From Nocardia fluminea (GTDB taxonomy: Bacteria > Actinomycetota > Actinomycetes > Mycobacteriales > Mycobacteriaceae): a stretch of DNA of 64,000 nt. Under the pieces are notes generated by a model, which worked only from the letters and a program-made list of their open reading frames with translations, made no database searches and was not told the origin of the DNA. Shown here piece by piece: positions 5,854 to 19,227 of this stretch. Within the stretch, counting starts at the first letter, position 1; every line of letters starts with the position of its first letter. A program made the translations under genes and the position numbers. The stretch spans positions 2,108,001-2,172,000 of the forward strand of contig NZ_PJMW01000002.1 of the NCBI RefSeq assembly GCF_002846365.1. Reading direction: 5' to 3'.

Positions 5854-5925
5854 GACGGTAGTCGCGCTACCGTTGGAGTGCGAACGCCGTGGCGGGCGGT
5901 AGGCGAAAAAGACAGGTGGAACGTG

Positions 5926-7013
5926 ATGCGAACTCTGGCGGTCGTTGGCGGCGGCGCCGTCGGACTCGCCGTCGCCTGGCGGGCCGCCGAGGCGGGCTGG
6001 ACGGTCACCGTCTACGACCCCGAACCCGCGCGCGGCGCCTCCTTCGTGGCCGGTGGAATGCTCGCGCCGCTGTCGGAGGGGTGGCCGGGGGAGGACCGCG
6101 TCCTCGCCTTCGGCGCGGCGGCGCTGGCGCGGTGGCCCGCGTTCGCCGAACGGCTCCGCGCGGTCTCGGGCGAATCGATGTTCGTGGCCGAGGAGACGCT
6201 CACCGTCGCCCTCGACAGCGCCGATGTCACGGACCTGCGCACTGTGTCGGAGTGGCTGGCCGGTTTCGGTCACGATCTGCGGGTGCTCGACCGTGCTGAA
6301 GTCCGCGCGCTGGAACCCGCGCTCGCACGCACCGTCCGTGCGGGACTGCACGCGCGAACCGAACCCGCCGTCGACAATCGCCGCGTCCTGCGTGCGCTCG
6401 AATCCGCTTGTGCCGCAACCGGTGTCGAGATCAGGGCCGAATCCGTCGCCGCCCTGGATGACCTACCGCACGACCGGGTGGTGCTCTCGGCGGGCGCCCG
6501 CTCCGCCGAGCTCTGGCCCGGCCTGCCGGTGCGCCCGGTGAAGGGCGAGATCCTCCGTTTGCGTCGCAGGCCCGGCGTCAGCCCGGCACCGACCAGGGTG
6601 ATCCGCGCCCGGGTTCACGGCAGGCAGGTCTACCTGGTTCCCCGGGAAGACGGAATCGTCGTCGGCGCGACACAATACGAGGCCGGCTTCGACACCACCG
6701 TCACCGTCGGCGGTGTCCGTGATCTGATCGCCGACGCCGAGACCATCCTGCCCGGCATCGCCGAATACGAACTGGCCGAAGCGAACGCGGGCTCGCGGCC
6801 GGGAACCCCCGACAACCTGCCGCTGCTCGGCCACCTCGACGACCGGGTCGTCGCCGCCACCGGTCACGGCCGCAACGGCATGCTCACCCTCGCGCTCACC
6901 GCGGCGGTCGTGCCCGCGCTGCTCGACGGCGATACCCCCGCGGTCATCGAAGCCGCGGCGCCCCAACGTTTTCCGGCATCGCAGATGCCATCTCTGTCGC
7001 AAGGAGGAGTTCG

Positions 7014-9001: not shown

Positions 9002-9762
9002 TGGGCGTGCTCGCAGCGGAACGAATCAAACTCACCTCCACCCGCTCGCCCTGGTGGTGCTCGGCGGTCGTGGTGGTTCTCGGCATCGGCCTCGCCTTGC
9101 TGATCGCGCTGGTCACCAACGCCGATACCGGGGGCAACTCGGAGGAGGGCCCGCCGTTGCTCACCCCGACTGTGGCGGTGTCGGGCGTCTCGAGCTTCGG
9201 CGTCATGGTCCTGATGATCATGGCCGCGTTGACGGTGACCAGCGAATATCGCTTCGGCGTCATCCGCTCCAGCTTCCTCGCCGTCCCGAACCGGTCCAAG
9301 GTCGTGCTGTCCAAGACCGCGCTGGTCGGCGTGTACGCGGCGGTGCTGACCGGTGTGCTCTCGCTCATCGCCTTCATCGTGGCCAAGGTGATCGTCGGTG
9401 ACGACGCTCCCGGTCTCGTGCTCGACGGCAACTGGCGAGCCCTCTACAGCGTTCCGATCTATGCCTTCCTGTGCGTCATGCTCGCCATCGGCGTCGGTGT
9501 GCTGGTGCGCCAGTCGGCCGCGGCGATCTCGCTGATCGTGCTGTGGTCGCTGCTGGTGGAGAACCTGCTCGGCGCGTTCGGCAGCTTCGGCCGCACCGTC
9601 AAGCCGTTCCTGCCCTTCCAGAACGCGAACCGTTTCCTGAGCGTCGAGGAGTACGCGGGCGACTGGCACTGGGGTGTGTGGGGCAGCCTGATCTACTTCG
9701 CCGTGTTCGTGGCGATCGTGTTCGCCGGCGCGCTCGTGCTGGTCAACCGCCGCGACGCCTGA
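9001..9762 (+). CDS. ABC-2 type exporter permease
   Basis: 253-residue membrane protein with about six predicted helices: a helix near 19-40, one near 66-85, and pairs near 100-130, 150-190 and 222-248. The conserved cytosolic TVTSEYRFGVIRSSFLAVPNR segment, between helices 2 and 3, identifies ABC-2 exporter permeases of the Nat/ABC-2_4 type. It is translated directly from the overlap with the ATPase gene and no third gene follows, so a two-gene transporter is complete. Confidence 0.9.
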   Translation: MGVLAAERIKLTSTRSPWWCSAVVVVLGIGLALLIALVTNADTGGNSEEGPPLLTPTVAVSGVSSFGVMVLMIMAALTVTSEYRFGVIRSSFLAVPNRSKVVLSKTALVGVYAAVLTGVLSLIAFIVAKVIVGDDAPGLVLDGNWRALYSVPIYAFLCVMLAIGVGVLVRQSAAAISLIVLWSLLVENLLGAFGSFGRTVKPFLPFQNANRFLSVEEYAGDWHWGVWGSLIYFAVFVAIVFAGALVLVNRRDA

Positions 9763-11456: not shown

Positions 11457-13172
11457 ATGAGTGCTCTCTCCGCTGACCCGGACCTGATCCGGATCGGGAA
11501 TTGTTCCGGGTTCTACGGTGACCGGCTCAGCGCTATGCGCGAAATGCTGGAGGACGGTCAGCTCGACGTGCTGACCGGCGACTACCTCGCCGAACTCACC
11601 ATGCTGATCCTGGGCCGCGACCGGATGAAGGATCCGAGCCTGGGCTACGCCAAGACCTTCGTCAAGCAGATCAAGGACTGCCTCGGCCTCGCGCTAGAGA
11701 AGAACGTCCAGATCGTCACCAATGCCGGCGGGCTGAATCCGGCCGGGCTGGCCGAGCAGTTGCGCAAGGTCGCCGCCGAGCTCGGTCTCGACGTCAAGAT
11801 CGCGCATGTCGAAGGCGACGACCTGGTGGCGCGCGCCGCCGAGCTCGACCTCGGGCAGCCGCTCACCGCGAACGCCTATCTCGGCGCGTGGGGGATCGTC
11901 GAGTGCCTGAACTCCGGCGCCGACATCGTCGTCACGGGCCGGGTCACCGACGCCTCGGTGATCGTGGGTCCCGCGGCCGCCCACTTCGGCTGGGCCCGTA
12001 CCGATTACGACGCGCTCGCCGGTGCGGTGGTCGCCGGTCACGTGATCGAGTGCAGCACCCAGGCCACCGGCGGCAACTTCGCCTTCTTCACCGAACTCGG
12101 TGACGTCGGCCGCCCCGGCTTCCCGATCGCCGAGATCCGACGCGACGGATCCTGCGTGATCACCAAGCACGACGGCACCGGCGGCGCGGTCACCGTCGAC
12201 ACCGTCGAAGCCCAGCTCATGTACGAGATCCAGAGCGCCCGCTACGCCGGACCCGATGTGACCACCCGCCTCGACAGCATCGCGCTGAGCCAGGAGGGCA
12301 CGGACCGGGTGCTGATCAGCGGCGTCACCGGTGAGGCCCCGCCGCCACAGCTGAAGGTCTCGCTCAACACCCTCGGCGGCTTCCGCAACGAGATGTCGTT
12401 CATTCTCACCGGCCTCGATATCGAGGCCAAAGCCGCACTGGCACAACGGCAGCTGGAATCCTGGCTGCCGGACAAGCCCGCCGAGCTCACCTGGACGCTG
12501 GCGCGCCTCGACCGCCCCGATGCCGAGACCGAGGAACAGGCCAGCGCGATCCTGCGCTGCGTGGTCCGCGATCCCGATCCGAACAAGGTCGGTCGCGGGT
12601 TCTCCAGCGTCGCTGTCGAATTGGCGCTGGCGAGCTACCCGGGCGCCAGCTTCACCGCGCTGCCGGGCAACGGTTCGCCTTACGGCGTCTTCACCCCTGG
12701 TTTCGTCGACGCGCACGAGGTGCCGCATGTCGCGGTGCTGGCCGACGGCACTCGTGTCGATATCGCGCCCGCCACGGAAACCGTTGTCCTGGAGCCTGTT
12801 TCCGAACCAGAACTGCCCGCGCCGCTGGCGCCCACCGAAACCCGTCGTGTGCCGCTCGGCACGATCGCGCTCGCCCGCAGCGGCGACAAGGGCGGCGACG
12901 CGAACATCGGCGTGTGGGTGCGCACCGACGACCAGTGGCGCTGGCTCGTGCACACCCTCACCGTCGACAAGCTGCGGGAACTTCTCCCCGAAACGGCCGA
13001 TCTGACCGTCACCCGCCACGTGCTGCCCAATCTGCGCGCGGTCAACTTCATCATTTCCGGGCTGCTGGGCAAGGGCGTCGCCTACCAGGCGCGTTTCGAC
13101 CCGCAGGCCAAGGGGCTCGGCGAATGGCTGCGCTCCCGCCACATCGATATGCCGACGGAGCTGCTCGCATGA
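11457..13172 (+). CDS. AtuA-like acyclic terpene utilisation family protein (DUF1446)
   Basis: 571 residues. The long N-terminal AtuA/DUF1446 domain (about 8-450) includes IRIGNCSGFYGDRLSAM, IVTNAGGLNPAGLAE, IVVTGRVTDASVIVGPAA, ATGGNFAFF and the SFTALPGNGSPYG-like segment. A C-terminal domain of about 100 residues begins VPLGTIALARSGDKGGDANIGVWV. AtuA is required for citronellol/geraniol use in Pseudomonas, but its biochemical role is not established. It heads an operon with fadE, accD, accA, fadE, echA and tetR; the M. tuberculosis homologue lies beside fadE13-accD2-accA2-fadE12-echA7 (Rv0976c-Rv0971c). The gene starts 33 bases after a palindrome and ends in the first stem of a structured repeat. 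Confidence 0.85.
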   Translation: MSALSADPDLIRIGNCSGFYGDRLSAMREMLEDGQLDVLTGDYLAELTMLILGRDRMKDPSLGYAKTFVKQIKDCLGLALEKNVQIVTNAGGLNPAGLAEQLRKVAAELGLDVKIAHVEGDDLVARAAELDLGQPLTANAYLGAWGIVECLNSGADIVVTGRVTDASVIVGPAAAHFGWARTDYDALAGAVVAGHVIECSTQATGGNFAFFTELGDVGRPGFPIAEIRRDGSCVITKHDGTGGAVTVDTVEAQLMYEIQSARYAGPDVTTRLDSIALSQEGTDRVLISGVTGEAPPPQLKVSLNTLGGFRNEMSFILTGLDIEAKAALAQRQLESWLPDKPAELTWTLARLDRPDAETEEQASAILRCVVRDPDPNKVGRGFSSVAVELALASYPGASFTALPGNGSPYGVFTPGFVDAHEVPHVAVLADGTRVDIAPATETVVLEPVSEPELPAPLAPTETRRVPLGTIALARSGDKGGDANIGVWVRTDDQWRWLVHTLTVDKLRELLPETADLTVTRHVLPNLRAVNFIISGLLGKGVAYQARFDPQAKGLGEWLRSRHIDMPTELLA

Positions 13173-13228
13173 TCGGTCAGCGCCCGGAGGCGGCAGCGGA
13201 GCGTAACCACGGAGGGCGCCCGATCATG
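13168..13228 (+). repeat. Structured intergenic repeat, copy 1
   Basis: The element starts on the stop codon of the atuA-like gene. The outer arms CATGATCGG (13168-13176) and CCGATCATG (13220-13228) pair perfectly, and GCGCCC/GGGCGC can extend the stem. The core, beginning CCCGGAGGCGGCAGCGGAGC and ending ACCACGGAGGGC, is shared with copy 2 at 17989-18053. The element ends 17 bases before the fadE start, upstream of its ribosome site (ACAGGAGAC). Confidence 0.75.
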
Positions 13229-13245
13229 CGACAGGAGACACAGGC

Positions 13246-14397
13246 ATGACATCAGTGTGGGAAACGGCGGAGCGTAAAGAGTTGCGCGCCACCGTGCGTG
13301 GGTTCGTCGAGCGGGACATCCTGCCCGACCTCGACGCCTGGGAGCGCGCCGGTGAACTGCCGCGCGAGCTGCACAAGAAGGCGGGCGAACTCGGTCTGCT
13401 CGGCATCGAGTACCCGGAGTCGGCGGGCGGGGAGGGCGGCAATGCCATCGACTCGCTCATCGTCGGCGAGGAGATCCATCTCGCCGGCGCCTCCGGTGGT
13501 CTGTGGGCTTCGCTGTTCACCTGCGGAATCTCGTTGCCGCACATGATCGCTTCGGGCAATCAGGCCCAGATCGACGAGTGGGCCAAGCCGACGCTGGCCG
13601 GTGACCTGATCGGTTCGCTGGCCATCACCGAGCCCGGCGGCGGTTCCGATGTCGGCCACCTCACCACCGCCGCCGTGCGCGACGGTGAGGACTTCATCAT
13701 CAACGGCGCCAAGACCTTCATCACCTCGGGCTGCCGCGCCGACTTCGTCGTCACCGCGGTGCGCACGGGCGGACCGGGCGCGGCGGGTGTGTCGCTGATC
13801 CTGGTGCCCACCGATACACCCGGCTTCACCGTCAGCCGCAAGCTGGAGAAGATGGGGTGGCTCGCCTCGGATACCGCCGAGCTGTCCTACGTGGACGTGC
13901 GGGTGCCCGCGTCGAACCTGGTCGGCGCCGAGAACAGTGGCTTCGCCCAGATCGCGTCCGCGTTCGTGAGCGAGCGGGTCGGCCTCGCGGTGCAGGCGTA
14001 TTCGCTGGCCCAGCGCGCACTCGACCTCACCGTGCAGTGGTGCCGCGATCGCGAGACCTTCGGGCGTCCGCTGATCAGCCGCCAGAAGGTGCAGATGACC
14101 CTGACGGATATGGCCCAGCGCGTCGACATCTCACGCACCTACACCCGTGCCCTCGTCGAGCGCTACGTCGCCGGTGATCAGAACCTGATCGCGGAGGTCT
14201 GCTTCGCCAAGAACAACGCCGTCGAGACCGCGGAATGGGTGGCCAACCAGGCCGTGCAGTTGCACGGCGGGATGGGCTACATGCGCGAGGCCGAGGTCGA
14301 GCGCATCTACCGCGATGTGCGCATCATCGGCATCGGCGGCGGCACCAACGAGATCCTGACCATGCTGGCATCGAAAGTATTGGGGTACCAGTCGTGA
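13246..14397 (+). CDS. Acyl-CoA dehydrogenase (FadE13-like)
   Basis: 383 residues, the normal length for a flavin acyl-CoA dehydrogenase that forms the alpha-beta double bond. Seen: LGIEYPESAGGEGG (N-terminal helical domain), SLAITEPGGGSDVGHL (FAD/acyl-binding beta domain), KTFITSGCRADFVVT, then RETFGRPLISRQKVQ and the C-terminal QLHGGMGYMREAEVERIYRD, where the second Glu is in the usual place of the catalytic base. ATG 13246 follows AGGAGAC. Its stop overlaps the accD GTG as GTGA (14394-14397). It resembles the branched-chain (isovaleryl/citronellyl-CoA type) enzymes that precede a biotin carboxylase pair. Confidence 0.92.
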   Translation: MTSVWETAERKELRATVRGFVERDILPDLDAWERAGELPRELHKKAGELGLLGIEYPESAGGEGGNAIDSLIVGEEIHLAGASGGLWASLFTCGISLPHMIASGNQAQIDEWAKPTLAGDLIGSLAITEPGGGSDVGHLTTAAVRDGEDFIINGAKTFITSGCRADFVVTAVRTGGPGAAGVSLILVPTDTPGFTVSRKLEKMGWLASDTAELSYVDVRVPASNLVGAENSGFAQIASAFVSERVGLAVQAYSLAQRALDLTVQWCRDRETFGRPLISRQKVQMTLTDMAQRVDISRTYTRALVERYVAGDQNLIAEVCFAKNNAVETAEWVANQAVQLHGGMGYMREAEVERIYRDVRIIGIGGGTNEILTMLASKVLGYQS

Positions 14398-15992
14398 CGA
14401 CCTTCCGTTCCACCATCGACACCGCCTCGCCCGAGTACACCGCGGCCGCCGAGGCGATGTCGGCCAAGCTCACCGAGGTCGAGGCGGAGTTCGCCAAGGC
14501 GATCGCCGGTGGCGGCCCCGAGAAGGTGGCCCGCCACCACAAGCGCGGCAAGCTCACCGCCCGTGAGCGCATCGAACTGCTGCTCGACGAGGACTCGCCG
14601 TTCCTCGAGCTGTGCCCACTCGCCGCGTGGGGCAGCGACTTCCACGTCGGCGCGTCGACGATCGCCGGGATCGGCCTCGTCGAGGGTGTCGAATGCATGA
14701 TCGTCGCGCCCGACCCGACGGTGCGCGGCGGTACGTCGAACCCGTGGACGCTGCGTAAGACGTTGCGCATCAACGACATCGTCCGGGAGAACCGCCTGCC
14801 GGTGATCTCGCTGGTCGAGTCCGGTGGCGCGGACCTGCCGACGCAGAAGGAGGTCTTCATCCCCGGCGGCGCGATGTTCCGCGACCTCACTCAGGCTTCG
14901 GCAGCCGGAATCCCCACCATCTCATTGGTGTTCGGCAACTCCACCGCCGGTGGCGCCTACATCCCCGGCATGTCCGACTACGTGGTGATGGTCAAGGAGG
15001 CCGCGAAGGTCTTCCTCGCGGGGCCGCCGCTGGTGAAGATGGCCACCGGTGAGGACTCCGACGACGAGACCCTCGGCGGCGCCGAGATGCACGCCCGCAC
15101 GTCGGGTCTGGCCGACTACATGGCCGCCGACGAGCAGGATGCGATCCGGCTCGGTCGCAACATCGTTCGTCGCCTGAACTGGAAGAAGCAGGGTCCCGAG
15201 CCGCGCGCCGAGGTGATCTCGCCGATCTACGATCCCGAGGAACTGCTCGGCATCGTGCCCTCGGACCTGAAGATCCCGTTCGATCCCCGCGAGGTCATCG
15301 CCCGGGTGGTCGACGGTTCCGACTTCGACGAGTTCAAGCCGCTCTACGGTTCGAGCCTGGTCACCGGCTGGGCCGAGATCAACGGCTACCCGATCGGCAT
15401 TCTCGCCAACGCGCGCGGCGTGCTGTTCTCCGAGGAATCGCAGAAGGCTACCCAGTTCATCCAGCTGGCGAACAAGAAGAACACGCCACTGTTGTTCCTG
15501 CACAACACCACCGGTTACATGGTCGGCAAGGAATACGAGCACGGCGGCATCATCAAACACGGCGCGATGATGATCAACGCGGTCGCCAACTCCACGGTGC
15601 CGCACATCTCGCTGCTGGTCGGCGCCTCCTACGGCGCCGGGCACTACGGCATGTGCGGGCGCGCCTTCAACCCGCGTTTCCTGTTCGCCTGGCCGAGCGC
15701 GAAATCCGCCGTCATGGGTGGGGCGCAGCTCGGCGGCGTGCTCACCATCGTGCAGCGCGGCGCGGCCGAGTCCAAGGGCCTGCCGTTCGACGAGGAGGCC
15801 GCCGCCGGCCTCGCCGCCATGGTGGAGGCCCAGATCGAGGCCGAGGCCATGCCGATGTTCCTGTCGGGCAGGCTGTTCGACGACGGCATCATCGACCCCC
15901 GCGACACCCGCACCGTGCTGGGAATGGCTCTGTCGGCCATTCACACAGCCCCGATCAAGGGCGCCGAGGGCTTCGGCGTCTTCCGAATGTGA
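14394..15992 (+). CDS. accD2: Acyl-CoA carboxylase carboxyltransferase subunit (AccD2/MCC-beta type)
   Basis: 532-residue carboxyltransferase that moves the carboxyl group from carboxybiotin to an acyl-CoA. It has both crotonase-like halves: N-terminal KRGKLTARERIELLLDEDSP, PVISLVESGGADLP and GNSTAGGAYIPGMSDYVVMV; C-terminal GSSLVTGWAEINGYPIGILA, LLFLHNTTGYMVGKEYEHGG and SYGAGHYGMCGRAFNPRF. The length and the GGAYIPGMSDY motif place it with methylcrotonyl/geranyl-CoA carboxylase beta subunits rather than propionyl-CoA AccD. Start GTG 14394 overlaps the fadE stop; the longer open frame belongs to fadE. Partner biotin subunit follows 8 bases after its stop. The substrate is unproven, and M. tuberculosis AccD2 has no agreed one as far as I know. 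Confidence 0.9.
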   Translation: MTTFRSTIDTASPEYTAAAEAMSAKLTEVEAEFAKAIAGGGPEKVARHHKRGKLTARERIELLLDEDSPFLELCPLAAWGSDFHVGASTIAGIGLVEGVECMIVAPDPTVRGGTSNPWTLRKTLRINDIVRENRLPVISLVESGGADLPTQKEVFIPGGAMFRDLTQASAAGIPTISLVFGNSTAGGAYIPGMSDYVVMVKEAAKVFLAGPPLVKMATGEDSDDETLGGAEMHARTSGLADYMAADEQDAIRLGRNIVRRLNWKKQGPEPRAEVISPIYDPEELLGIVPSDLKIPFDPREVIARVVDGSDFDEFKPLYGSSLVTGWAEINGYPIGILANARGVLFSEESQKATQFIQLANKKNTPLLFLHNTTGYMVGKEYEHGGIIKHGAMMINAVANSTVPHISLLVGASYGAGHYGMCGRAFNPRFLFAWPSAKSAVMGGAQLGGVLTIVQRGAAESKGLPFDEEAAAGLAAMVEAQIEAEAMPMFLSGRLFDDGIIDPRDTRTVLGMALSAIHTAPIKGAEGFGVFRM

Positions 15993-16000
15993 GCAGCGAC

Positions 16001-17995
16001 ATGACGATGACGAATGTTCTCGTTGCCAATCGTGGTGAGATCGCGCGCCGCGTGTTCGCCACCTGCCGCCGGATGGGCATCGGCACCACCGCGGTCTACT
16101 CCGATGCTGATGCCGCCTCGCCGCATGTGGCCGAGGCCGACGCCGCGATCCGGTTGCCCGGCAACACTCCGGCGGAGACCTACCTGCGCGGTGAGCTGAT
16201 CATCGAGGCCGCGCTGTCGGCCGGTGCCGACGCGATCCACCCCGGCTACGGATTCCTCTCCGAGAACGCCGAATTCGCGCGCTCCGTGCTCGACGCGGGT
16301 CTGGTCTGGATCGGTCCGCCCGTCGCGGCGATCGAGCAGATGGGCTCCAAGGTCGAGTCCAAGAAGATGATGGACGCCGCCGGTGTCCCCGTGCTGGCCG
16401 AGCTCGATCCGGCCGAGGTCACCGACGCGCACCTGCCCGTGCTGATCAAGGCATCCGCCGGTGGTGGCGGACGCGGCATGCGCGTGGTGCGCGATCTCGC
16501 CGAGTTGCGGGACCAGATCGCCGGTGCCCAGCGGGAGGCCGAGTCGGCCTTCGGCGATCCGACGGTGTTCTGCGAGCGCTACCTCGAGACCGGCAGGCAC
16601 ATCGAAGTGCAGGTCATGTCGGACACGTTCGGCAAGACCTGGGCGGTGGGCGAGCGTGAGTGCTCGATCCAGCGACGGCACCAGAAGGTCGTCGAGGAAG
16701 CGCCGTCGCCGCTGGTCGAGAAGATCGACGGCATGCGGGATCGGCTGTTCGAGGCGGCGCGTCTGGCCGCCGAGGCGATCGGGTACGAAGGTGCGGGCAC
16801 CGTCGAGTTCCTGGCCGACGAGAAGGGTGACTTCTTCTTCCTCGAGATGAACACCCGTCTCCAGGTGGAACATCCGGTCACCGAGCAGACCACCGGACTG
16901 GACCTGGTCCGCCTGCAGTTGCAGGTGGCGTCGGGTCTGCCGCTGCCCGCGAACCAGCCCGCCCTGCGTGGTCACTCGATCGAGGTCCGCCTCTACGCCG
17001 AGGACCCCGCGCACGACTGGCAGCCGCAGAGCGGGCCGGTGCACAAGATCGAGATCCCGTTCACCGCCGGTGAATTCACCGTCCTCGACCAGCCCGGCGT
17101 GCGCCTGGACACCGGTGTCGTCGACGAGTCGGTGGTGGGCGTCCACTACGACCCGATGCTCGCCAAGGTGATCTCCTACGCCGAAACCCGCGCGGAGGCA
17201 GCACATCTGCTCGCCACCGCGCTACAGCGGGCCAAGATCCACGGACTGGTCACCAACCGTGACCTGCTCGTGCGGGTCCTGCGCCACCCGGCGTTCCTCG
17301 CCGGTGACACCGACACTGCCTTCTTCGCCACCCACGACCTGGCCGTGCTGTCGGCGCCGCTGGTGTCCGAGGCCGACGAGGCCCTCTCGATCGTGGCTGC
17401 GGCCCTTGCCGATTCGGCGCTGAATCGTGGCGCCTCGCGTCTGGCCGGACTCGCCCCGAGCGGCTGGCGCAACCTGTCGTCGCTGCCGCAGACCAAGTCC
17501 TATGAGAGCCGCACCACCGGCATCCACGAGGTGCGCTACCGCTTCACCCGCACGGGTGTCGCGGTCGAGGGCCACGACGGTCTCGAGCTGATCTCGGTCG
17601 CACCCGATCGGGTAGTCCTGGGCGTGCCGGGTGAACGTGGCGCGGTACGCAGGCAATTCGAGATCGCCCGCTACGGCGATCTGGTCGCGATCGACTCCCC
17701 GCTCGGCCCGGTGGCCGTGCGCAGGCTGCCCCGCTTCACCGATCCGTCGGAGCAGGTGGCGGCCGGTTCGCTGCTCGCGCCGATGCCGGGCAGCGTGATC
17801 CGCCTCGGTGCCGCCGAAGGCGACCACGTGAAGCAGGGGCAGCCCATTCTGTGGCTGGAGGCGATGAAGATGGAACACACCATCGCGGCCCCGGCGACCG
17901 GCATTCTCAGTGCACTCAACGTGACCGTCGGCCAGCAGGTCGAGGTCGGAACCGTCCTCGCCGTCGTCGAGGAAGAAGAGCAGGAGCCGTCCTGA
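16001..17995 (+). CDS. accA2: Acyl-CoA carboxylase biotin carboxylase/BCCP subunit (AccA2 type)
   Basis: 664 residues. Biotin carboxylase domain (1 to about 445): LVANRGEIARRVFATCRRMG, IHPGYGFLSENAEFA, ATP-grasp loop KASAGGGGRGMR, ERECSIQRRHQKVVEEAPSP and FLEMNTRLQVEHPVTE. A linker/BT-like region follows, then the C-terminal biotinyl domain (about 588-660) with LAPMPGSVIRLG and the biotin Lys in EAMKMEH. This is the fused alpha subunit typical of methylcrotonyl-CoA and related carboxylases. ATG 16001 is chosen because family homology starts there; the frame is open further upstream inside accD. It forms a complex with the preceding AccD subunit. The stop lies in the first stem of the second structured repeat. 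Confidence 0.93.
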   Translation: MTMTNVLVANRGEIARRVFATCRRMGIGTTAVYSDADAASPHVAEADAAIRLPGNTPAETYLRGELIIEAALSAGADAIHPGYGFLSENAEFARSVLDAGLVWIGPPVAAIEQMGSKVESKKMMDAAGVPVLAELDPAEVTDAHLPVLIKASAGGGGRGMRVVRDLAELRDQIAGAQREAESAFGDPTVFCERYLETGRHIEVQVMSDTFGKTWAVGERECSIQRRHQKVVEEAPSPLVEKIDGMRDRLFEAARLAAEAIGYEGAGTVEFLADEKGDFFFLEMNTRLQVEHPVTEQTTGLDLVRLQLQVASGLPLPANQPALRGHSIEVRLYAEDPAHDWQPQSGPVHKIEIPFTAGEFTVLDQPGVRLDTGVVDESVVGVHYDPMLAKVISYAETRAEAAHLLATALQRAKIHGLVTNRDLLVRVLRHPAFLAGDTDTAFFATHDLAVLSAPLVSEADEALSIVAAALADSALNRGASRLAGLAPSGWRNLSSLPQTKSYESRTTGIHEVRYRFTRTGVAVEGHDGLELISVAPDRVVLGVPGERGAVRRQFEIARYGDLVAIDSPLGPVAVRRLPRFTDPSEQVAAGSLLAPMPGSVIRLGAAEGDHVKQGQPILWLEAMKMEHTIAAPATGILSALNVTVGQQVEVGTVLAVVEEEEQEPS

Positions 17996-18053
17996 TCCGG
18001 TCAAGCCCGGAGGCGGTAGCGAAGCGTGACCACGGAGGGCTCCGGGTCAGGAC
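17989..18053 (+). repeat. Structured intergenic repeat, copy 2
   Basis: This starts on the accA stop codon. Arms GTCCTGATCCGG (17989-18000) and CCGGGTCAGGAC (18042-18053) form a 12-bp stem with one G-U pair. The core (CCCGGAGGCGG..., ...ACCACGGAGGGC) matches copy 1. Relative to copy 1, an A-T pair has become C-G and a whole C-G pair is inserted, which supports a selected stem. It ends 13 bases before the next fadE start, with AGAAGGG as ribosome site in between. Confidence 0.75.
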
Positions 18054-18066
18054 AGAAGGGTTCAGC

Positions 18067-19227
18067 ATGAGTTTCATCGAAACCGAAGAGCAGAAGGCGC
18101 TGCGGGCGGCGGTCGCGTCGCTGGCGGCGAAGTACAACTACCGCGACTATGTGCTGCCGCTCTCGCGCAAGAACGAGCCGCTCACCGAACTGTGGGACGA
18201 GGCGGGCAAGCTCGGTTTCCTCGGCGTGAACCTGCCCGAGGAGTTCGGCGGCGGTGGCGCGGGGATGTACGAGCTGGCGCTGGTGCAGGAAGAGCTCTCG
18301 GCGCAGGGCGCCGGCCTGCTGTTGATGGTCGTGTCCCCGGCCATCTGCGGCACCATCATCACCAAGTACGGCACCGACGCGCAGAAGCAGAACTGGCTGC
18401 CCAAGCTCGCCGACGGCTCCTCGAAGATGGTCTTCGCGATCACCGAGCCCGACGCGGGGTCCAACTCGCACCAGATCACCACCACCGCCCGCCGCGACGG
18501 TGACGACTGGATCCTCAACGGCCGCAAGATCTTCATCTCCGGCGTCGACCAGGCCGAGGCCATCCTGGTGGTCTCGCGCACCGAGGATCACAAGACCGGC
18601 AAGCTCAAGCCCGCGCTGTTCATCGTGCCGGTGGACGCGCCCGGCCTGGTGAAGAACGTCCAGGAAATGGACGTCATCGAGCCGGACCACCAGTACACGC
18701 TGTTCTTCGACGACGTGCGCCTGCCCGCCGACGCCCTGGTCGGCTCCGAGGACGCGGCGCTGGCCCAGCTGTTCGCCGGGCTGAACCCCGAGCGGATCAT
18801 GGGCTCGGCGATGGCGATCGGTCTCGGTCGCTACGCCATCGACCGCGCGGTCGAATACGCCAAGGAGCGCACGGTCTGGAAGACGCCGATCGGCGCGCAC
18901 CAGGGTATTTCGCATCCACTGGCGCAGATCAAGATCGAGCTGGAACTGGCCAAGCTGATGATGCAGAAGGCCGCGACGCTCTATGACTCGGGCGACGAGT
19001 TCGGCGCTGCCGAAGCTGCCAATATGGCCAAGTACGCGGCGGCCGAGGCGAGTATCAAGGCGCTCGATCAGTCGATCCAGACGCACGGCGGTTCGGGTCT
19101 GACTCGTGAGGTCGGCTTGGCGGCGATGCTGCAGGCGGCGCGGATCATGCGGATCGCTCCGGTGAGCCGGGAGATGATTTTGAACTTCGTTTCGCAGCAC
19201 TCGTTGGGTTTGCCCAGGTCTTACTGA
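18067..19227 (+). CDS. Acyl-CoA dehydrogenase (FadE12-like)
   Basis: 386 residues. Shows the flavin dehydrogenase pattern: NLPEEFGGGGAGMYE, MVFAITEPDAGSNSHQI, GRKIFISGVDQAEAILVVSR, DDVRLPADALVGSEDAALAQ, RYAIDRAVEYAKERTVWKTP and C-terminal HGGSGLTREVGLAAMLQAAR. The C-terminal helix lacks the Glu-bearing ...VE(R/K)xYRD signature of FadE13-like enzymes, so the catalytic base must come from elsewhere, as in FadE12-type proteins. ATG 18067 follows the second structured repeat; the open frame upstream is accA sequence. Second dehydrogenase of the operon, so the pathway probably needs two different oxidations. Confidence 0.9.
   Translation: MSFIETEEQKALRAAVASLAAKYNYRDYVLPLSRKNEPLTELWDEAGKLGFLGVNLPEEFGGGGAGMYELALVQEELSAQGAGLLLMVVSPAICGTIITKYGTDAQKQNWLPKLADGSSKMVFAITEPDAGSNSHQITTTARRDGDDWILNGRKIFISGVDQAEAILVVSRTEDHKTGKLKPALFIVPVDAPGLVKNVQEMDVIEPDHQYTLFFDDVRLPADALVGSEDAALAQLFAGLNPERIMGSAMAIGLGRYAIDRAVEYAKERTVWKTPIGAHQGISHPLAQIKIELELAKLMMQKAATLYDSGDEFGAAEAANMAKYAAAEASIKALDQSIQTHGGSGLTREVGLAAMLQAARIMRIAPVSREMILNFVSQHSLGLPRSY

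Follow-up and report, generated by a model that had tools for sequence, protein, structure and literature searches.

Two short palindromic elements in a Nocardia acyl-CoA operon, probably MIRU-like mobile units at stop/start junctions

We found that two gaps of an acyl-CoA operon, when the sequence was read at both, hold one structured element of about 75-80 nt in two copies. We consider both copies to be very small, apparently non-autonomous mobile palindromes which are typical of Nocardia, resemble MIRU and keep translation coupled across the junctions that they occupy (probability roughly 0.7). The operon lies in a window of 64,000 nt (the whole stretch of DNA analysed, from what we call the source genome) and encodes an AtuA-family protein, an acyl-CoA dehydrogenase, a carboxyl transferase, a biotin carboxylase and a second acyl-CoA dehydrogenase. 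This content (window 11457-19227) suggests the breakdown of acyclic terpenes or branched acyl-CoA. The nearest named relatives of fadE1 belong to Nocardia, the best being 97% identical in protein. The element consists, in order, of an outer stem of 11-12 bp, a TCA bulge, an inner stem of 5-6 bp, a 28-nt loop and a short tail; in both copies the upstream TGA lies inside the left arm of the outer stem and the tail ends at the next ATG. Scores in the following list come from the covariance model R1, which was built from alignment A1 (27 copies).

11457..13172, + strand: AtuA family gene upstream of copy 1, its stop within the left arm of the element
13166..13245, + strand: copy 1, in the gap between the AtuA-like gene and fadE1 (gap 1; R1 match 13162-13249, 91.6 bits)
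13166..13176, + strand: copy 1 outer stem, left arm, CGCATGATCGG, holding the upstream stop TGA (13170-13172)
13167..13172, + strand: GCATGA, left half of a 6-bp direct repeat whose halves lie 77 nt apart (from sequence and empty sites)
13169..13249, + strand: copy 1 mini-ORF, 26 codons plus stop (frame f2, locus L092)
13177-13179, + strand: copy 1 bulge, TCA
13180..13185, + strand: copy 1 inner stem, left arm (6 pairs, from the fold)
13186..13213, + strand: copy 1 conserved 28-nt loop
13214..13219, + strand: copy 1 inner stem, right arm, pairing with 13180-13185 (from the fold)
13220..13230, + strand: copy 1 outer stem, right arm (11 pairs with the left arm, from the fold)
13231..13245, + strand: copy 1 tail, with a Shine-Dalgarno-like AGGAG (13233-13237), ahead of the fadE1 ATG (sequence reading)
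13244..13249, + strand: GCATGA, right half of the direct repeat, overlapping the fadE1 start (from sequence and empty sites)
13246..14397, + strand: fadE1, acyl-CoA dehydrogenase
15992..17995, + strand: acyl-CoA carboxylase alpha (biotin carboxylase), start assumed at 15992, stop inside copy 2
17989..18066, + strand: copy 2, in the gap between acyl-CoA carboxylase alpha and fadE2 (gap 2; R1 match 17985-18072, 93.2 bits)
17989..18000, + strand: copy 2 outer stem, left arm, GTCCTGATCCGG, holding the upstream stop TGA (17993-17995)
17992..18066, + strand: copy 2 open frame of 25 codons from CTG(A), in frame into fadE2 (frame f2, locus L091)
18001-18003, + strand: copy 2 bulge
18004-18008/18037-18041, + strand: copy 2 inner stem (5 pairs)
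18009..18036, + strand: copy 2 conserved 28-nt loop
18042..18053, + strand: copy 2 outer stem, right arm (12 pairs with the left arm, one of them T.G)
18067..19227, + strand: fadE2, acyl-CoA dehydrogenase

The mini-ORF of copy 1 begins with an ATG that overlaps the upstream TGA and ends with a TGA that overlaps the fadE1 ATG, giving ATGA at both ends. The 28-nt loop is the same in both window copies, GGAGGCGGYAGCGRAGCGTRACCACGGA, and many stem positions differ between them. The core pattern (≤ 3 mismatches) occurs twice in the window, against 0 occurrences expected from 100 shuffles, which confirms the proposal of the first-pass annotation that one element fills both gaps. The sequences were as it had described them, but the stem of copy 1 reaches two bases further on either side than the 13168-13228 which it gave. 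A search of the window with R1 returned the two copies and no others. Folding z-scores were −3.76 for copy 1 and −3.11 for copy 2, and none of 200 shuffles folded as well for either. An intrinsic terminator was rejected, there being no T run after either right arm; a terminator scan (loops of 3-8) listed a single site for the region, at 17994-17981 of the minus strand. Rfam families gave no matches above the gathering cut-off in the window and none at E ≤ 1 around each copy, which rules out a known RNA family as the identity of the element.

The first-pass annotation had proposed a covariance-model search for further copies, and this found many, with compensatory changes. There are at least 15 copies in the source genome by R1, a lower bound since only 150 of 7,627 first-look candidates were scored, and the genes adjoining them are unrelated to one another by our reading of these loci. 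All 118 genomes of the genus Nocardia that were searched (drawn from a larger group and including the source genome) contained R1 matches, with counts per genome that saturate because 37 candidates were scored in each; three relatives, with 150 candidates scored per genome, gave 100, 50 and 43 matches. On the 80 orthologous loci (1.02 Mb), R1 produced 28 matches at E up to 1, at least 20 of which are rows of A1 or their like and match by construction. Neighbouring matches were 75 nt apart at many loci, indicating tandem copies. In a sample of the order, 8 of 298 genomes matched at E ≤ 1e−4 when 14 candidates per genome were scored, 7 from the same genus and 1 from another family; the listing covers mostly the genomes with a match, so that the 7 should not be read as a fraction of the genus members in this sample. 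The sole match outside the genus in this sample (L137, G383:C47:161268-161355) lies at a stop/start junction, with the TGA and the following start both in phase, and looks like a transfer. As copies were taken from the best-scoring matches, decayed copies are under-sampled.

Viral contigs contained no exact matches to the core and no phage record matched the element, leaving no phage link in either. The plasmid search returned one record, a 2.66-Mb replicon of Nocardia farcinica listed as a plasmid, with 23 places, and this single record says little about plasmid spread. The element was not recognised among the best-ranked matches of the open-licence literature searched. The link to fadE suggested by the first-pass annotation looks incidental: other copies in the source genome precede other genes, and we rejected fadE-specific regulation on that ground.

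Several individual loci are worthy of mention. One copy (L098, G000:C2:3686297-3686383) lies between genes which we take, by eye and from motifs, to be rnc-like and fpg-like. Two copies in opposite orientations lie about 650 bp apart in one gene-like region (L097 and L100, G000:C2:2517936-2518672), which is presumably a peptide synthetase-like gene; the first reads in frame as a linker and one of the two is apparently antisense. In N. macrotermitis and N. jiangxiensis (L035:5917-6004; beginning of L031) gap 1 is occupied by either a divergent relative or another repeat, the insert in L035 scoring E = 0.0037 with R1. The gap-1 junction of Mycolicibacterium frederiksbergense (L090, approximately 5880-6000) contains a different repeat-like insert with GAGCGAGGACCGGAGCGAGG, perhaps another junction-seeking repeat.

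We then considered where copies sit relative to reading frames. Sequence was taken around listed matches (60 stretches). Alignment A3 (116 matches) includes 93 of the loci numbered L106-L207 (102 in total), the nine omitted being repeats of places already included. For the frame analysis the 17 source-genome rows of alignment A2 were added, and after same-place repeats and rows without the stop column had been dropped there were 129 copies, 101 of them leading copies. Coding phase was assigned by GC content per codon position rather than by annotation, and genes were called by composition and by eye. The expected column held TGA in 91 of the 101 leading copies (10 had none), and the letter before it was A in 75, G in 11, C in 5 and T in 0. 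A confident upstream phase was available for 89 of the 101. The phase was confident for 81 of the TGA copies, and in 69 of them upstream sense coding is closed in frame by the TGA, in agreement with the earlier suggestion of a dispersed repeat tied to stop codons; the remaining 12 comprise 4 with sense coding in another phase and 8 with an antisense upstream phase. For the 15 copies of the source genome, 10 clearly end the upstream gene, 3 are unclear and 2 lie in one gene-like region.

Following the tail, 79 of the 101 leading copies have a recognisable next start (none was recognised in the other 22), identified by a pattern on the tail which favours typical copies; the spacing was 75 nt in 63 of these 79, and the mini-frame was free of stops in 78 of the 79 measurable copies. 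Of the 75 last copies, 27 had no recognised next start and 45 had a confident downstream phase, and in 39 of the 45 the start is in the downstream coding phase. Loop column 37, where a T would make TAG, has T in 0 of 110 full-length loops (G in 54, C in 37 and A in 19). The peptide of the mini-ORF does not itself look conserved, since the loop's four variable bases occupy first or second positions in codons of the mini-frame. Random placement inside genes, which would have spoken against the reading in the first-pass annotation, was not seen. In 11 leading copies the upstream sense phase differs from the phase of the TGA column. Four of these (L207 and three from the carboxylase site described below) can be read across the whole element in phase and without a stop; L096 stops at a TGA shifted by one column, and the other 6 run into stops.

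Presence of the element at a given junction is polymorphic between species. Many species have nothing but an ATGA overlap at gap 1, for example GAGCTGCTCGCATGAC in L014, while the source genome carries a 77-nt insertion flanked on either side by GCATGA; further gap-1 copies are present in L012, L016, L018, L019, L028, L041 and L042. Gap 2 is filled in the source genome, L014, L016, L022, L017 and L019, filled with the core deleted in L013, and empty in L011 and others. Species with a filled gap 2 and those with an empty one differ in how the upstream protein ends, both in its final residues and in its stop, as though these had been brought by the element. With regard to the earlier idea that stop codons serve as targets, the empty sites at gap 1 are stop/start overlaps of the form ATGA, and at gap 2 the stop seems to be element-borne. 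At the junction of another copy of the source genome (L093), 28 of 29 relatives' loci have no element, with a short spacer or overlap only, and the remaining locus (L209) carries a degraded copy.

The element was also found inside a gene. In several species the carboxylase gene has 75 nt (25 aa) in frame between KID and MRDRLF, and shorter in-frame inserts occur at the same spot in other Nocardia. The carboxylase inserts (L013, L018, L020, L025, L029, L036, L039, L046, L060 and L065, at approximately 9467-9619) fall in the biotin carboxylase domain of acyl-CoA carboxylase alpha, possibly an insertion hotspot within an enzyme. On a fadE1 tree (a quick tree from DNA, 81 rows) the fewest changes needed were 8 for gap 1 (8 carriers), 6 for gap 2 (7 carriers) and 11 for the carboxylase site (11 carriers), counts which cannot separate gain from loss. 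The weak matches in L035 and L064 were not counted as carriers, and the degraded copies in L013 (gap 2) and L016 (carboxylase) were. The gap-1 copies of L012, L016, L160 and the source genome have a similar tail, and because some close species lack a gap-1 copy which by its tail looks shared, losses must be assumed as well.

The stems of the family covary. In A1, 15 of 17 stem pairs had changes on both sides and 92.6% of cells were paired, compared to 69.3% in shuffles and 30.5-44.0% in slid versions; in A3 (115 distinct rows), an alignment fitted to the R1 model, 15 of 17 pairs were again double-changed and 93.6% of cells were paired, compared to 82.6%. None of 500 shuffles reached the observed pairing in either alignment, which bears out the conserved structure proposed earlier, and the compensatory change first noted between the window copies (ATGA/TCAT vs CTGA/TCAG) is real and part of this family-wide covariation. 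At single sites, seven gap-1 copies, which may include separate insertions, had 95.0% of cells paired and double changes in 8 of 17 pairs, and twelve in-gene carboxylase copies had 92.6% paired and double changes in 10 of 17. At gap 1 the pair involving the base of the start codon is A-U (three copies), G.U (three) or G-C (one), the states through which compensation in RNA would pass. While the stems drift, the 28-nt loop is conserved at most columns. Over 12 stem pairs there were 31 G.U against 4 A.C mismatches, plus 26 others, and this excess of G.U points to the sense strand. It should be noted that this claim depends on leaving five pairs aside, since the sum over all 17 is 52 G.U vs 75 A.C: the three TGA pairs (G.U 18 vs A.C 2) are biased by retention of the stop, column 4 (1 vs 9) reflects largely tandem followers, and column 18 (2 vs 60) is hardly paired in most copies. 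Strand-biased mutation could add to the difference between G.U and A.C.

Pairing of the right arm extends into the upstream flank. Among 87 leading copies of A3, the arm forms Watson-Crick pairs with the three flank bases that precede NTGA in 85, 84 and 84 cases, whereas shuffled means were 60.6, 65.2 and 61.6 and shuffled maxima 69-73; one base further upstream, complementarity was at chance (23 of 87 vs 22.7 shuffled). In 24 tandem followers the outermost flank base was also at chance (13 of 24 vs 11.6). One genome (G004) has five different triplets (GGC, CGC, CGT, AGC and GGG) and its arms match them in 10 of 11 leading rows, while its 3 followers with complete arms do not match. GGC is the flank triplet at most sites. 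At gap 1 the triplet is host sequence in the empty sites, and at gap 2 it seemingly arrives with the element. At a further junction of the source genome (L095) the comparison of empty sites is partly readable; the readable empty relatives have GGA or CGA before ATGA and the source genome has GGC, so that this junction lends no support to target matching. With flank data this mixed, target choice, copying and later compensation look alike. We would only tentatively, and with considerable doubt, suggest that the arm is set by the target, either by guide pairing with the three bases upstream of an NTGA cut or by copying of the target at insertion. If so, every insertion would make a perfect hairpin with host sequence, and the element would be a minimal (approximately 75 nt), guide-like, stop/start-seeking unit able to settle between genes or in frame inside them.

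Other explanations of these observations were weighed. The element could be a cis-acting RNA selected by the host (a processing site, a stabiliser or a binding target read through the loop) which has spread because it helps regulation. The strong covariation, the G.U states on the sense strand, the loop kept at most columns beside drifting stems and the location of most copies at operon junctions would all fit, and cutting of Correia elements by RNase III, together with the RNase E site of ERIC, offers a precedent (PMC10969869). We nevertheless think this unlikely, because the same junction is patchily occupied among close species, copies occur in tandem, in frame inside a gene and next to unrelated genes, and Rfam has no family near the element. 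It is likewise doubtful that the fold is kept as single-stranded DNA, as a transposase substrate on the model of IS200/IS605 or REP elements, with the right arm guiding the unit to its target and the RNA fold and mini-ORF as by-products. Arm pairing which reaches exactly three flank bases and drops to chance one base beyond, the host origin of the gap-1 triplet and the matching of five triplets in G004 are what such a guide would produce, but GGC is common to most sites, the gap-2 triplet seems element-borne, the empty relatives at L095 have other bases and compensation after insertion would yield the same pattern.

It is improbable, and we would give it little weight, that the covariation is unselected and that template switching at replication repairs imperfect palindromes, so that the arms stay complementary by a mutational process. 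This would explain why nearly all stem positions covary, the flank triplet and in-gene copies included, but it predicts equal numbers of G.T and A.C mismatches, and 31 vs 4 were counted over the 12 pairs kept when five were set aside. Finally, the two window copies both lie in one operon, within 5 kb, as would be expected from local duplication of an operon segment or, failing that, a chance match. With 0 occurrences expected in shuffles and many stem differences between the copies this is hardly credible, and the copies elsewhere in the source genome and in 118 of 118 genus genomes refute it.

The reading that we prefer, of small mobile palindromes which keep translation coupled, would work as follows. 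The element sits mainly in sense orientation where the stop of one gene overlaps the start of the next (NTGA, usually ATGA), and transposition is the movement that we infer. As ATGA is repeated on both sides at gap 1, neither the end of the upstream gene nor the start of the downstream gene is lost. Within the structured unit, mostly of 75 nt, the TGA would close the upstream gene while the overlapping NTG would open a frame of 25-26 codons. In units of 77 or 74 nt, such as copy 1, this mini-frame would close on the next ATGA; in 75-nt units it would continue in frame into the next gene, possibly from the CTG in copy 2. This phase of the unit would also allow copies to sit in frame inside a gene and to expand in tandem. 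The RNA form is predicted to fold into the two-part stem with its conserved loop, and a ribosome ending at the TGA would open this fold, so that downstream translation would depend on upstream translation. Translational coupling, one of the functions offered in the first-pass annotation, thus appears plausible from the arrangement of the stop, the mini-frame and the start phases.

The closest likeness among known systems is to MIRU. MIRU are described as repeats of 40-100 bp at 41 places in H37Rv (PMC2734929), with units of 77 and 53 bp at senX3-regX3 (PMC4213456), and a 2025 review (PMC12548453) describes them as apparently mobile units that insert at start codons, their ORF being coupled to the neighbour at a spacing of −4. 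The Nocardia element is also short, dispersed and variable in copy number (mostly 75 nt, with 15 to 100 matches in four genomes), it is located at stop/start junctions with an NTGA/ATGA overlap (the 69 of 81 above), and it too occurs in tandem copies 75 nt apart. As to the −4-spaced ORF, of the 39 in-phase downstream starts 18 appear to end the mini-ORF at ATGA and 21 are in frame with it, as putative in-frame extensions. The copy between the rnc-like and fpg-like genes (L098) corresponds to a junction which holds MIRU-VNTR tandem repeats in the tuberculosis complex (PMC2734929). However, the genus is a different one and the likeness is one of description; R1 had no match at E ≤ 1e−4 in 290 of the 298 genomes of the order, with 14 candidates per genome scored. 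The Nocardia element has a two-part stem that covaries, an arm that matches three bases of flank and copies lying in frame inside a gene.

In that last respect it resembles the Rickettsia palindromic elements, which are described as approximately 150 bp long, inserting in frame in genes and encoding a peptide (PMC10969869), since in several species acyl-CoA carboxylase carries it as an in-frame insertion of 25 aa; it differs from these Rickettsia repeats of around 150 bp in its unit of 75-77 nt and in lying mostly at stop/start junctions. With REP/RAYT, Correia and ERIC it shares being a small palindrome without a transposase gene of its own, and effects of RNases on Correia and ERIC transcripts are reported (PMC10969869). 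The Nocardia unit further has an open mini-ORF and a stop/start placement, neither of which is known to be typical of REP/RAYT, Correia or ERIC.

If our reading is right, a genus other than the mycobacteria also shows MIRU-like behaviour, with a high copy number and numerous pairs of filled and empty sites. How such units move would then become testable by comparison, as would the question of whether their hairpin and mini-ORF preserve or retune operon expression. For annotation, 25-residue N-terminal extensions and internal inserts in Nocardia proteins should be treated with caution, as they may be derived from this repeat.
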